42,458 bases of DNA. It comes from Bacteroidota bacterium. Lineage in GTDB: Bacteria; Bacteroidota; Bacteroidia; Cytophagales; UBA9547. The stretch is taken from positions 1 through 42,458 of the forward strand of contig RDZG01000093.1 of the NCBI GenBank assembly GCA_004293915.1, read 5' to 3'. Position 1 is the stretch's first letter. Every line of letters starts with the position of its first letter. Of the stretch, positions 37,342 through 42,458 are shown piece by piece. The translations under genes and the position numbers were made by a program. The notes beneath the pieces were generated by a model that saw only the letters and a program-made list of their open reading frames with translations, was not told the origin of the DNA and did no database searches.

Positions 37342-38556
37342 TTATTTTATCTCAATTTTATCAATTTCTTTCATCAATCTATTTGTTTCGGTAAGCGCAA
37401 CGATGATTTTTTGATAATGCAAAATATCATCAAATTCTAGTTTTCTATCTTTACGGTCTTTGAGCCATTTTTGGGCAGGTTGGTAGCCTCCAATGTAAAA
37501 GTTCCAAGCTACTTCGGGTACATTATCAAAATACTGCGTGTCGTTGATGTACACAAGCCCCACCCCAGCCCTCCCCGAAGGGGAGGGAGAAAAACGTGGT
37601 TTTACAACTACATTGTTTCCGTCTTCAGGATATTGTGTGATGTATTTTTCAACTGTAGGGCTTTCCAATAAATGGATTTGGCGGAGTTGGCCGCCTAGAC
37701 TTACCAAGTTTTGAAAACTTGGTAAGTCTTTTGGATATGGCACTCTCGGAAAATCAATTTTTAAAAATTCTTTGTATTGCTCTCTATACGTAGGGGAGTG
37801 TAAAACCGCATAGATATAATCTAAAATGTCTATGGGAGCAAAATAATTATTAATGGTTAATGATGAATTATTAATTTTTTCATTTACAAATTCCAAATTT
37901 AATTTCTCTGCAATTTGCTTTACAATTTTTGTGTTTAGGTTGGGGGTTCTATCTGTTGATTGACCAATGGTTTGTTGGGCTGTGGCTTCGGGATAGAGGT
38001 ATAGAGGAAAAAAATAATTTCCTTCTTGTCCTTTATTTGAAATTAAGCACCTATCACTAATTTTTTTTGAAATGAATAAATGAAAGAATGACTTACTCGA
38101 TAATATTTTTGTTGTAACCAATGCAATATTTTCTTTGAAAAAATGTTTTTGTAAATCAACTCTCAATCTTTGAATTAGTTGATTATTGTATAAAAATTTC
38201 CGTTCATCAAAAACACGATAATTATATGTTATGATTTCATGTTCTAGAAAATCTATTTTGTAATTGGTTAATTGAGACTTTAAGTTTTCCGTATTACTCG
38301 ACACGAAAGTTTCATCTTTTCCCGTTGCAGAACCCATTTTGTAAAAATTAAACAACTCATCAACCTTAAAGCCTTTTTCATATAACCCTGATTGGTCAAA
38401 ATTCTTCTTCACCAAAAAGAAATTAGGAGCTTCTGGTTTCAACTCATTCCAGCTAATGGTACTTAGGGAGTTTTCACTCAAAAAATCATACTTAAATTCT
38501 CGCTTGCCTTGCAAATCAAAATGAAAAACTTGGGCTGGTTTCGTTTCTTTATTCAT
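37342..38556 (-). CDS. Downstream half of a split type ISP methyltransferase (copy B), C-terminal specificity part
   Basis: A 404-residue protein that aligns from VFHFDLQGKREFKYDFL to the C-terminal end with copy A (VFHYDLFGKREFKYDFL). Its start MNKETKPAQ is supplied by the end of the inserted nuclease gene: ATG at 38556 overlaps the nuclease stop by 8 bp. The first 230 residues (target-recognition region) differ from copy A. From FFPLYLYPEATAQQTIGQ on, the two are very similar (PIDILDYIYAVLHSPTY, YPKDLPSFQNLVSLG, AWNFYIGGYQPAQKWLKDRK). It has no catalytic NPPY motif of its own. Residues SPSPSGRAGVGL are an insertion from a GC-rich palindrome. It could work as a separate specificity subunit. 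Confidence 0.85.
   Translation of the reverse strand: MNKETKPAQVFHFDLQGKREFKYDFLSENSLSTISWNELKPEAPNFFLVKKNFDQSGLYEKGFKVDELFNFYKMGSATGKDETFVSSNTENLKSQLTNYKIDFLEHEIITYNYRVFDERKFLYNNQLIQRLRVDLQKHFFKENIALVTTKILSSKSFFHLFISKKISDRCLISNKGQEGNYFFPLYLYPEATAQQTIGQSTDRTPNLNTKIVKQIAEKLNLEFVNEKINNSSLTINNYFAPIDILDYIYAVLHSPTYREQYKEFLKIDFPRVPYPKDLPSFQNLVSLGGQLRQIHLLESPTVEKYITQYPEDGNNVVVKPRFSPSPSGRAGVGLVYINDTQYFDNVPEVAWNFYIGGYQPAQKWLKDRKDRKLEFDDILHYQKIIVALTETNRLMKEIDKIEIK
37557..37597. repeat. GC-rich palindromic element inserted in frame in methyltransferase copy B
   Basis: The core CCCTCCCC (37569-37576), 3-nt loop and GGGGAGGG (37580-37587) form a perfect 8-bp stem with a cTTCg-like loop on the minus strand, with flanking caccccagc. 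It is a C/G island in an AT-rich gene. It replaces four residues of copy A (ENGK) with about 12 (SPSPSGRAGVGL) and keeps the frame. I recall similar short palindromes, giving a GRAGVG peptide, in many Bacteroidota genomes. Confidence 0.8.
37697..37729. repeat. 33-bp palindrome inside methyltransferase copy B coding region
   Basis: Left arm AGACTTACCAAGTTTT, one central base, right arm its exact reverse complement. It encodes the KDLPSFQNLVSL peptide. Copy A has the same element at 40978-41010 with a single change. Confidence 0.92.
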
Positions 38557-39697
38557 GATCAGTTTCTATATTTTTCAATTGTTGGGTAAGTTGCTCCATC
38601 GTTGGCAAGCCCAGTTTGATGTTTTCTGGCAGTTCAGTATAGCGGTATTCGCTTACACCTATGGGTTTATTTATATCTTTCAAGGCAAATTCTACTTCGT
38701 AATTGTCCTTATTTTTACAAAGCAAAATGCCAATGGTAGGATTGTCGGTTGGGTCTTTTACCAATTCGTTGATGGCTGAAATATAAAAGTTGAGTTTGCC
38801 TATAAATTCGGGTTCAAACTCTTGATATTTTAGTTCTATCACGATATAACATTTTAGTTTGGTGTGATAGAATAGTAAATCTGTACGGTATTCTTTCGTG
38901 CCAATTTTGAGTAAATATTGCTGCCCCATGTAGGCAAAACCTTTGCCCAATTCGAGCAAAAACTGCGAAATGTGTTGCACCAGTTTTTGCTCCAAATCTT
39001 TTTCCTTAGCTTTTTCTGAAAGGGTTAAAAATTCAAAATGATATGGGTCTTTGAGTAAGGCATTAGCCAAATCGCCTTGCGTTTCGGGCAATACGTTCTT
39101 AAAATTGGTAATGGCACTTCCTTGTCTTTTAAACAGATTGGTCTCTATTTGGTACTCAAGCACCGCTCTACTCCAATTGTTTTCCACCGTTTTTTCGATA
39201 TAAAAACAGGCTTCCGATTTGTTCTTTATTTTCTGGATAATTAAAATATGGCTTCCCCAAGGAATATTAAAAAATATCTCATTATCAAACAGTTGCAATT
39301 GCGAAACGACCCGTTTCGCAATTGCAAAAATGGGCTCATCTAATTGCGAAACAACTTGTTTCGCAATTGCAGAATTAGGTTCATCCAATTGCGAAGCAGC
39401 TTGCTTCGTATTTGAAAAATAGAATAAAGTCCATTGCCTAACCAATTCCAGATTTCGCTTTGAAAACCCCGTCATTAAGGGAAATTCAGCTTGCAAATCT
39501 TTACTCAGTTGTCCTAAAAAGTTGCTCCCCCAATTGCTTGCTTCTTGCTTTGCAATAATTTGAATGCCCAAATCTAAATAAAGCATAAGCATCTCTTTAT
39601 TAATGGATATAGAGGCTTTTATTTGAGACTTTTTTACATTTTCTTTTATAGTATAAAGCCAGTTTTTATAACCGGAATCGGAAATCAAATTGCTCAT
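38549..39697 (-). CDS. DUF1016 / PDDEXK nuclease-domain protein (YhcG-like) nested in methyltransferase copy B
   Basis: A 382-residue protein. The N-terminal DUF1016 part has MLMLYLDLGIQI, LGQLSKDLQAEFP, GFSKRNLELVRQW and FNIPWGSHI. The C-terminal PDDEXK domain carries GTKEYRTDLLFYH (Asp) and YIVIELK (Glu-x-Lys), then EFIGKLNFYISAINE, as in YhcG proteins of about 350 residues. A 45-bp tandem repeat (QLDEPxxAIAKxVVS) expands residues 102-140. Its ATG lies 1 bp after the stop of the upstream methyltransferase fragment, and its stop overlaps the start of the downstream half, so it interrupts that gene at one point. DUF1016 nucleases often accompany restriction systems; the exact role is not established to my knowledge. 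Confidence 0.88.
   Translation of the reverse strand: MSNLISDSGYKNWLYTIKENVKKSQIKASISINKEMLMLYLDLGIQIIAKQEASNWGSNFLGQLSKDLQAEFPLMTGFSKRNLELVRQWTLFYFSNTKQAASQLDEPNSAIAKQVVSQLDEPIFAIAKRVVSQLQLFDNEIFFNIPWGSHILIIQKIKNKSEACFYIEKTVENNWSRAVLEYQIETNLFKRQGSAITNFKNVLPETQGDLANALLKDPYHFEFLTLSEKAKEKDLEQKLVQHISQFLLELGKGFAYMGQQYLLKIGTKEYRTDLLFYHTKLKCYIVIELKYQEFEPEFIGKLNFYISAINELVKDPTDNPTIGILLCKNKDNYEVEFALKDINKPIGVSEYRYTELPENIKLGLPTMEQLTQQLKNIETDHE
39299..39410. repeat. 45-bp in-frame tandem repeat with internal palindromes in the DUF1016 gene
   Basis: Unit 1 is 39299-39343, unit 2 is 39344-39388, and a partial unit starts at 39389. Each unit begins with an inverted repeat: ttgcgaaac - 5 nt - gtttcgcaa in units 1 and 2, and ttgcgaagc - 4 to 5 nt - gcttcg in the third. 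The units encode 15 residues each and lie between the DUF1016 N-domain and the FNIPWG region. Confidence 0.88.
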
Positions 39698-39698
39698 A

Positions 39699-40013
39699 TT
39701 ATTGCTTTTTTTTCTTTACAAAAATATTAATACTCACCCCTTGCATAATGTCAAATACGTTTTGATCAGGACTGCCATCTAGGCACACTTCCTTTTTCTT
39801 TGCGTTGCCATGTAGGTCTAGTATATATACCTTGTCAAACGTTTTCATCAATTCTTCTCTCATTTTTCGGTGAATAATACCATCTATAAAACTATTATTG
39901 GAAATAAATGCCAAAATACCTTCTCCCGTTTTTTCTACATAATATTGCCCTAAACGCAAAAATTTGATATAATCATCCGAAAGCGGGTTAAATAATTTTT
40001 GAAATTTGGTCAA
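39699..40013 (-). pseudogene. Upstream fragment of the split type ISP methyltransferase (copy B)
   Basis: The 104-codon frame has no ATG start (first possible TTG at 40013) and lacks the SAM-binding and NPPY motifs. From PLSDDYIKFLRLGQYYVEKT to GVSINIFVKKKKQ it matches copy A residues (NDDYVKFLRYGQHFIEK to GVSINIFVK). It stops at TAA (39699-39701), exactly where copy A continues with TGKKKANELGKVFHYD and where the DUF1016 gene starts. Its upstream end overlaps the 204-residue gene by 26 bp, which appears to have replaced the missing N-terminal part. Alone it cannot be an active methyltransferase; it could be untranslated. Confidence 0.82.
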
Positions 40014-40646: not shown

Positions 40647-42458
40647 TTATTCTATCTCAATTTTATCAATCTCTTTCATCAATCTATCTGTCTCAGCTAG
40701 GGCAACGATTATTTTCTGATAATGTAAAATGTCGTCAAATTCTAGTTTTCGGTCTTTGCGGTCTTTGAGCCATTTTTGTGCTGGCTGATAGCCACCAATG
40801 TAAAACTCCCAAGCTATTTTTGGCACATTGTCGAAATATTGAGTGTCGTTTATAAATACTTTTCCGTTTTCGTATTTTGGTTTTGTAACTACATTGTTTC
40901 CATCTTCAGGATATTGTGTGATGTATTTCTCAACAGTTGGACTTTCTAATAAATGGATTTGGCGGAGTTGGCTGCCTAGGCTTACCAAGTTTTGAAAACT
41001 TGGTAAGTCTTTTGGATATGGCACTTTTGGGAAATCTATTTTTAAAAACTCCTTGTATTTTTCTCGGTATGTTGGAGAATGCAAAACAGCATAGATATAA
41101 TCCAAAATGTCTATGGGTGCAAATGTATCTTTGGTTGTTTCTTTTTCGTTAGTAAAAGTTAAGCCCAATTTATTAGCAATTTGATTAACCAATTCTAAAT
41201 TAAGATTTGGCTTTTTTTCAAATGTTTGCCCTATAGTTTGTTGACCGTTGTTATCGGGATATAAATAAAGTGGAAATAAATTTACTCCGCCACGTCTGAA
41301 AATATTTGCATCAACTGGATTTTTAGAAACAGTTGTTAAACACCATTCAATATCTCCAATTGCTAATCCTTGTCTACCAATGCCAAGTATTATATTTTCT
41401 TTATTTTTAGAATGAATTAATAGTTCTTTTCTTGGTCTATCAACTACAATTTTATCGAAATAAATATATTTTGTTTCAAATGGTCTATAATTACATTTAA
41501 TTATTTCTTTTTCTATATCAACTTTTGAAAATTCAGTTTGTGCTTTTTGTATATTAAAATCAGTTGAAGATTTAACTCCAAACTCTTTTGAAATTTCATC
41601 TTCTGAATTTTTATTTTGAGAAAATTTATATAGTCTATTTGCTAAATGTGTTTTGCTATCATCAATGCAAAAATCATCTCTATGAGTTTGAAAACCCATT
41701 ACATTTATTTGAAACAAAGTAGTAGGATTTATACCATTATTGTAACTCTTTAACAATGTATCATCAATTTTCTTGAACAGATAATTGTTTTTAAATGGGT
41801 CAAAACTATTAAATGCAATATGTTTAAGAGAGTTGTCGGAAAGGAAGTCATACTTAAATTCACGTTTCCCGAATAAGTCATAGTGAAATACTTTGCCTAA
41901 TTCGTTTGCTTTCTTTTTGCCTGTTTTTACGAAAATATTTATTGAAACTCCTTGCTCAATATCAAATACATTTATGTCTGCACTTCCATCAGGTGAAGTT
42001 TCTTTTTTCTTGGCGTTTCCGTGTAAGTCAATAGTATAAATTTTGTCATACGTTTTAAGCAAGTTCCACCGCATACCACGAAAAGTAGGATTATCTAAAA
42101 AGCCGTGAGGATTAATAAAGGCTAAAATACCACTTCCGTTTTTTTCTATAAAGTGCTGTCCATAACGCAAGAACTTAACATAATCGTCATTTATAAATTT
42201 TGAGTTTTGTTCTTTCAGTTTTTCTTTTCCACCTGGCTCTTTTTTGTAATCTTCCATCAGGCCCATAATCCACTGACCTTTATTAGCACTTTCTCCGCTG
42301 TATGGCGGATTTCCAATTACACACATTACAGGAGTATCTCTTTTTATGTGATTGGCTTCGTTGGCTTCTGTGCTTAACCAATTGGCAAAGAGCGTTCCTG
42401 TGTCGGGGTGGCTTTCTTCTAAACTGTTGGTCAAATAAACTCTGAACCTTTGGTTTGT
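40647..42458 (-). CDS. Type ISP restriction-modification enzyme, methyltransferase and C-terminal specificity region (copy A), 5' end beyond window
   Basis: The minus frame is open to the window edge (604 codons visible), and residues before the first possible start (QRFRVYLTNSLEES) match the family, so the N-terminus lies outside. CVIGNPPYSGES holds the catalytic NPPY of an N6-adenine methylase. NDDYVKFLRYGQHFIEKNGSG, DLHGNAKKKETSPDG and FDIEQGVSINIFVK are conserved ISP segments. Residues about 200-410 form the target-recognition region, and the C-terminus from LFPLYLYPDNNGQQ on is the ISP specificity domain. In LlaBIII-type enzymes one long chain has nuclease, translocase, methylase and recognition parts; whether this one does depends on sequence outside. 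Confidence 0.87.
   Translation of the reverse strand, partial: TNQRFRVYLTNSLEESHPDTGTLFANWLSTEANEANHIKRDTPVMCVIGNPPYSGESANKGQWIMGLMEDYKKEPGGKEKLKEQNSKFINDDYVKFLRYGQHFIEKNGSGILAFINPHGFLDNPTFRGMRWNLLKTYDKIYTIDLHGNAKKKETSPDGSADINVFDIEQGVSINIFVKTGKKKANELGKVFHYDLFGKREFKYDFLSDNSLKHIAFNSFDPFKNNYLFKKIDDTLLKSYNNGINPTTLFQINVMGFQTHRDDFCIDDSKTHLANRLYKFSQNKNSEDEISKEFGVKSSTDFNIQKAQTEFSKVDIEKEIIKCNYRPFETKYIYFDKIVVDRPRKELLIHSKNKENIILGIGRQGLAIGDIEWCLTTVSKNPVDANIFRRGGVNLFPLYLYPDNNGQQTIGQTFEKKPNLNLELVNQIANKLGLTFTNEKETTKDTFAPIDILDYIYAVLHSPTYREKYKEFLKIDFPKVPYPKDLPSFQNLVSLGSQLRQIHLLESPTVEKYITQYPEDGNNVVTKPKYENGKVFINDTQYFDNVPKIAWEFYIGGYQPAQKWLKDRKDRKLEFDDILHYQKIIVALAETDRLMKEIDKIEIE
40978..41010. repeat. 33-bp palindrome inside methyltransferase copy A coding region
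   Basis: Same element as 37697-37729 with one G/T pair instead of A/T. It encodes PKDLPSFQNLVSLG and lies in a stretch nearly identical between the two copies (GATTTGGCGGAGTTGG precedes both), while the surrounding sequence has many synonymous differences. Confidence 0.9.

Follow-up and report, generated by a model that had tools for sequence, protein, structure and literature searches.

The window, by which we mean the whole 42,458-nucleotide stretch of DNA that was analysed, contains a GC-rich palindromic element inside copy B, a fragment of a Type ISP gene, and a paralogue of that gene, copy A, which has no GC element at the corresponding site (Table 1). The initial annotation had placed a GC-rich palindrome in frame in the specificity domain, and such a palindrome is indeed present and translated in copy B, which matches the Type ISP C-terminal specificity domain PF18135. 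Copy B is both split and truncated: its methylase core is missing, helicase and nuclease parts are absent, and it does not have the single-chain Type ISP architecture of nuclease, helicase and methylase. The element had been described as tolerated in frame, and it is translatable, but its host is a C-terminal piece and not an intact methyltransferase. At 38549-40013, the two pieces of copy B are parted precisely by the YhcG/DUF1016 nuclease gene, which was possibly inserted there. This nuclease gene itself contains two in-frame palindromes, at 39293-39327 (TTGCAATTGCGAAAC..) and 39342-39368 (AATTGCGAAACAA..).

Table 1. Features of the window at and around the palindromic element.
Feature	Coordinates	Strand	Remarks
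GC-rich palindromic element TCTCCCTCCCCTTCGGGGAGGGCTGGGGTGGGGCTT	37555..37590	-	hairpin plus GGGGTGGGG tail; encodes SPSPSGRAGVGL; aligned with other genome copies
Perfect hairpin CCCTCCCC-GAA-GGGGAGGG	37569..37587	.	inside the GC element
Copy B (404 aa), which hosts the element; Type ISP C-terminal specificity domain (PF18135)	37342..38556	-	E 1.6e-75
33-nt perfect palindrome AGACTTACCAAGTTTTGAAAACTTGGTAAGTCT in copy B	37697..37729	.	encodes DLPSFQNLVSL; length unchanged
Second variable loop (NEK..FAPID) of the specificity domain	37843..37875	-	DUF559 in L207 and L188; palindromes in other homologues
YhcG/DUF1016 PDDEXK nuclease gene parting the two copy B pieces	38549..39697	-	
N-terminal remnant of copy B, 104 aa	39699..40013	-	
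Copy A, paralogue with short loop ENGK; in-window site without GC element	40647..42434	-	

Read on the minus strand, the element encodes SPSPSGRAGVGL between KPRF and VYINDTQ of copy B, where copy A reads KPKY-ENGK-VFINDTQ. The two copies share 90-95% amino-acid identity on either side of this site. Relative to copy A there is a net gain of eight codons in which ENGK has been replaced, and a clean insertion is not seen; the site and the extra residues are thus as first described, while the peptide is a replacement and not a simple addition. The element is 36 nt long, and its limits of 37555-37590, set by alignment with the genome copies, lie slightly to the left of the 37557-37597 given at first. 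The hairpin 8-mer occurs twice in the window against an expectation of 0.12, and two occurrences were reached in none of 100 shuffles. A search of phage records retrieved no match to the element, and a 101-nt query gave weak plasmid matches (E 0.02-0.8). Most differences between the C-terminal parts of copies A and B are silent (dN/dS 0.03-0.06), so coding constraint applied during most of their separate history, though not necessarily after the insertion. An AlphaFold2 model of copy B has a mean pLDDT of 83, with the loop blocks 321-340 at 91-93, and in this model the insert is the tip of a beta-hairpin. The best Foldseek matches of the predicted fold are DrdV, LlaGI and LlaBIII.

Two further repeat-like stretches were observed in copy B. 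A palindrome around AAGTTTTGAAAACTT is perfect in both copies, at 37697-37729 in copy B and at 40981-41007; it codes for DLPSFQNLVSL where homologues have KDTFWQLVKL, and the equal length indicates replacement and not insertion. Loop 2 of copy B (INNSSLTINNY, 37843-37875) is encoded by AT-rich, repeat-like DNA (aataattcatcattaaccattaataatt).

Searching the source genome for the stem, as had been suggested, found the perfect hairpin form only once, together with about 13 relatives that share the hairpin and the GGGGTGGGG tail (consensus TTCCCCTCCCC-TT-GGGGAGGGG-TTA-GGGGTGGGG); these were located by pattern search only, and the count is therefore a minimum. The predicted resemblance to dispersed palindromes is borne out by these relatives, as is the suggestion that the repeat remains translatable after insertion, since 7 of the approximately 13 are in frame, spread over four genes: one in Type ISP copy B, three in LeuRS (two of them around a DUF559 domain), two in ValRS, and one in an N6-methylase-like gene, where the element peptide IAPSPSGRAGEGL is nearly identical to SPSPSGRAGVGL. 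The remaining copies are apparently intergenic or upstream of a start codon. One of the two in-frame GC elements of ValRS (L108 1192-3999) lies directly before the ITIATTRPET segment.

The same loop was then compared across 85 Type ISP homologues, as the initial annotation had also proposed. Copy A and most homologues have a four-residue loop at the element site, and 73 of the 85 have no recognisable element there; the other 12 carry differing repeats from five unrelated families. The GC-rich repeat occupies the loop in copy B and in L207, a GTCATTGCGA..GAAGCAATC repeat in L024, L081 and L093, a TTCGACTNCGCTC-type repeat in L025, L070, L071 and L188, a GGTTTTNAAAACC-type repeat in L045 and L077, and a TTTGTCAAAGT palindrome in L026, the last of which was left out of the counts of repeats in own genomes. 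The GTCATTGCGA type occurs in 9, 15 and 23 copies in the genomes that carry it (reversed control 0), and AGGTTTTNAAAACCT in 4-10 copies at palindromic sites in its own genomes, as compared to 0-1. TTCGACTNCGCTCA has six copies in the L025 genome and only 1-2 in those of L070 and L071, and the repeat status of these two is weaker than that of L025, L081, L093, L024, L045 and L077. On the homologue tree the repeat label changes at least eight times on supported branches, which indicates that the loop was filled repeatedly. The second loop (NEK..FAPID) is also occupied by inserts in homologues. A literature search for the odd peptide strings and the GTCATTGCGA repeat returned no match. Separately, the Type ISP protein L037 contains a 44-bp perfect in-frame palindrome of yet another repeat family in its N-terminal part, at about residue -863 from the FYIGGY anchor.

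A second kind of insertion was found to be bounded by such palindromes. In the source genome, two copies of the window's GC element flank a DUF559 domain inside LeuRS, and copies of a different GC palindrome flank one inside MetH. Within the loop of the right-hand GC element of the LeuRS unit (L107 2540-2620) lies a further short palindrome. Genomes of the same family have DUF559 inside LeuRS, IleRS, MetH and a Type ISP protein; in the last, from genome G017, loop 2 is filled by DUF559 with inverted GC palindromes at its ends, and loop 1 holds this palindrome without the nuclease. At LeuRS site 1, DUF559 is present in four genomes, and three same-genus genomes have only short repeat-encoded stretches, of which the one in G000 is a clear GC element.

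Across a sample of 296 Bacteroidota genomes, 126 encode DUF559, and the domain with both palindromes is often embedded in frame and unspliced in conserved proteins, including LeuRS (two sites), IleRS, MetH, RecG, methylmalonyl-CoA mutase, HsdR, HsdM and Type ISP proteins. Pfam confirmed IleRS, MetH, RecG, methylmalonyl-CoA mutase, HemF (N-terminal), HsdR, Type ISP, HsdM and HisF (N-terminal) as hosts. Among the 150 DUF559 matches listed, 44 lie in open frames of at least 300 residues. Some of the hosts come from complete single-contig genomes, which makes misassembly unlikely. Each insert consists of a linker, a nuclease of about 110 aa and a second linker. The AlphaFold2 model of L207 has a pTM of 0.45 and was used only for the DUF559 part (residues 400-510), where pLDDT is 74-96 by block and mostly above 90, and for the flanking linkers, which are predicted to be disordered. 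In a single HsdR open frame (L165 175-3315), DUF559 is accompanied by a GIY-YIG domain.

The ends of these units are inverted copies of each other far more often than in controls. An inverted-end match score of at least 14 was reached at 40 of 74 DUF559 loci, versus 5 of 296 mismatched pairs and 1 of 296 random places, and a GC hairpin was present on both sides of 41 of the 74, versus 2 of 296. Some of the 74 loci had been selected because their frames are long, a choice that bears on the proportion embedded and not on the flank test; taken alone, the embedded loci, which have coding DNA on both sides as the control does, reached the same score in 27 of 51 cases. About 45% of DUF559 loci have no strong inverted match, many of them having decayed ends. 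Inverted GC ends were also found at 14 of 47 DUF559 loci on viral contigs and at 7 of 10 plasmid loci (up to 53 and 56 nt), the latter sampled from Deinococcus, Sphingomonas, Sphingobium, Azospirillum and Picosynechococcus. Two Deinococcus plasmid DUF559 genes (L210 and L217) have terminal inverted repeats of 53 and 56 nt and are apparently complete units of roughly 0.5 kb. When different host genes are compared, the more similar two DUF559 proteins are, the more similar their ends tend to be (Mantel r 0.34, p 0.001), a correlation carried in part by pairs from the same genome or genus.

DUF559 is already assigned to the EDxHD homing family (PMC9403480), and DNA damage in Caulobacter has been traced to a DUF559 protein (PMC12907096). 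In line with the family assignment, at least eight residues (E20, W24, Q39, D48, E59, G62, H65 and D74) are invariant in all 73 DUF559 domains compared, embedded or free, and these include the E-D-x-H-D catalytic residues (E20, D48, E59, H65, D74); a DUF559 profile matches PDB 3hrl at 8.5e-33 and 3r3p, the protein of a mobile intron, at 4e-6. Embedded domains are under strong constraint (dN/dS ~0.06). In one RecG pair from two species (L197 and L198, insert ~1780-2230), dS is 0.03 in DUF559 versus 0.45 and 0.40 in the host, and an insert so much more alike than its host points to its recent lateral transfer between equivalent sites. The same host sites are occupied by DUF559 in distant genomes. 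In the DUF559 tree, inserts from one host site cluster together in part; those of LeuRS site 2 arose separately several times, and HsdR and Type ISP inserts that share ends are mixed in one group with good support. For several hosts, however, the grouping by host gene fits long vertical inheritance as well as it fits homing.

Taken together, we think that the window element is probably a solo, non-autonomous end of a mobile unit coding for a DUF559 nuclease. A full unit would comprise a palindrome, the DUF559 open frame and an inverted palindrome, and would insert with or without the nuclease. In Bacteroidota, copies would often be retained in frame in exposed loops or linkers of conserved proteins and be translated without splicing; in the window, a solo copy would have replaced the four-residue hairpin turn of the Type ISP specificity domain. 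We infer that DUF559 cuts at or near the palindromes and mobilises them, with spread possibly proceeding by homing-like repair at allelic sites and by occasional jumps into new genes. No excision, target duplication or movement of units was observed, and the window copy may never have carried, or been moved by, DUF559.

In the alternative that survives best, which we consider unlikely, a RAYT (Y1) transposase or some unknown factor moves the element as a conventional REP-type palindrome, with DUF559 as a passenger also using loops. GTAG and CGTC REPs have been described within genes, tRNA synthetases included (PMC3733652), and the source genome has two weak Y1_Tnp matches. Inspection of the window element, however, found neither a GTAG nor a CGTC tag, and the ends at DUF559 loci match each other far above chance. 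Additionally, we scanned the 296 genomes for one GC subfamily with the pattern CACCCCN{2,4}CCCTCYCC. At least two copies were found in 40 of 126 DUF559-positive genomes versus 14 of 170 negative ones (p 2.8e-7), one of these 14 having 22 matches, and the association held when labels were shuffled within families (p 1e-4). DUF559 predicted the number of GC elements within Y1-positive genomes too, whereas Y1_Tnp had no effect across the 296 genomes (p 0.44); RAYT-type mobilisation is thus not supported.

Somewhat less likely again is a protein-coding palindromic element like those of Rickettsia, unlinked to DUF559, in which selfish repeats survive where loops tolerate them. The presence of five unrelated repeat families in one Type ISP loop indicates that the loop is permissive whatever the mover, as this explanation would have it, but the inverted palindromes flanking DUF559 in LeuRS, IleRS, MetH and Type ISP proteins are left unexplained. 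It is very improbable that template switching created the palindrome at its present position by correcting a quasi-palindrome as the pseudogene decayed. Copy B is fragmented, ENGK is replaced, and the nearby 33-nt palindrome changed sequence at constant length, but a matching tail and hairpin recur in a dispersed family at sites unrelated to this one, which correction in place would not yield, and in view of the multi-copy consensus such an origin is rejected for the GC element. The palindrome at 37697-37729 may have formed in place. An ancestral loop can be dismissed with near certainty, for although loop length varies across homologues, most of the 85 compared have four residues and the residues of the element, looked for in distant homologues, are conserved in no other.

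Having preferred a solo end of a DUF559 unit for the window element, we regard it as an evenly balanced question whether palindrome-bounded DUF559 units are a widespread, undescribed mobile class, in which a homing-type nuclease acts on its own ends and either the whole unit or a palindrome by itself enters conserved proteins in frame and is maintained as a translated domain and not as an intron or intein, and whether this class is the missing mobiliser of GC-rich palindromes in Bacteroidota, Deinococcota, Pseudomonadota and Cyanobacteriota. No link between DUF559 and palindromes was found in the literature searched, subscription journals and preprints being outside the search, and an earlier description elsewhere is possible. 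The proposal would give the many dispersed GC-rich palindromes without GTAG or CGTC tags a named enzyme that can be tested, and would account for unusual peptides such as SPSPSGRAG seen in annotated proteins. It would also mean that a mobile nuclease survives unspliced inside essential enzymes (for instance LeuRS, IleRS, MetH and RecG) and that short repeats keep diversifying one loop of a DNA-specificity domain.

Several known systems resemble parts of this arrangement. The specificity-domain fold of copy B is that of the Type ISP enzymes LlaGI and LlaBIII, although copy B is a fragment without their helicase and nuclease parts. Similar to the Rickettsia palindromic elements (RPEs), the window element belongs to short in-frame palindromes in unrelated, often essential genes (here Type ISP, LeuRS, ValRS and the N6-methylase-like gene), and to that extent the analogy drawn in the initial annotation is apt; it misses the role of palindromes as ends of a DUF559 nuclease element. 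RPEs, which were compared by description and not by consensus, occur in another phylum, while here a GC-rich hairpin has a tail and the palindrome bounds an embedded nuclease gene. The GTCATTGCGA repeats of L024, L081 and L093 resemble CGTC-tagged REPs. The REPtrons formed by GTAG/CGTC REPs and RAYTs (PMC3733652) likewise have palindrome pairs flanking an enzyme gene and dispersed solo copies, some of them intragenic; DUF559 units differ in having no GTAG/CGTC tag and in that the enzyme is an EDxHD/Vsr-like nuclease and not a Y1 transposase. Inteins with homing endonucleases also place an endonuclease in frame within conserved proteins, but in nine embedded DUF559 examples Pfam detected only DUF559 and host domains and no splicing (Hint) domain, and a reading of the units as inteins is rejected. 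A related enzyme is found in the EDxHD homing endonucleases (I-Bth0305I, PDB 3r3p) and VsrA (PMC12907096), which by profile and invariant residues share a nuclease superfamily with DUF559 and have site-conserved insertions. In DUF559 units, in contrast, there is no intron or intein and host and nuclease are translated as one protein, and the palindromic ends that these units carry are undescribed for EDxHD endonucleases and VsrA in the literature examined.
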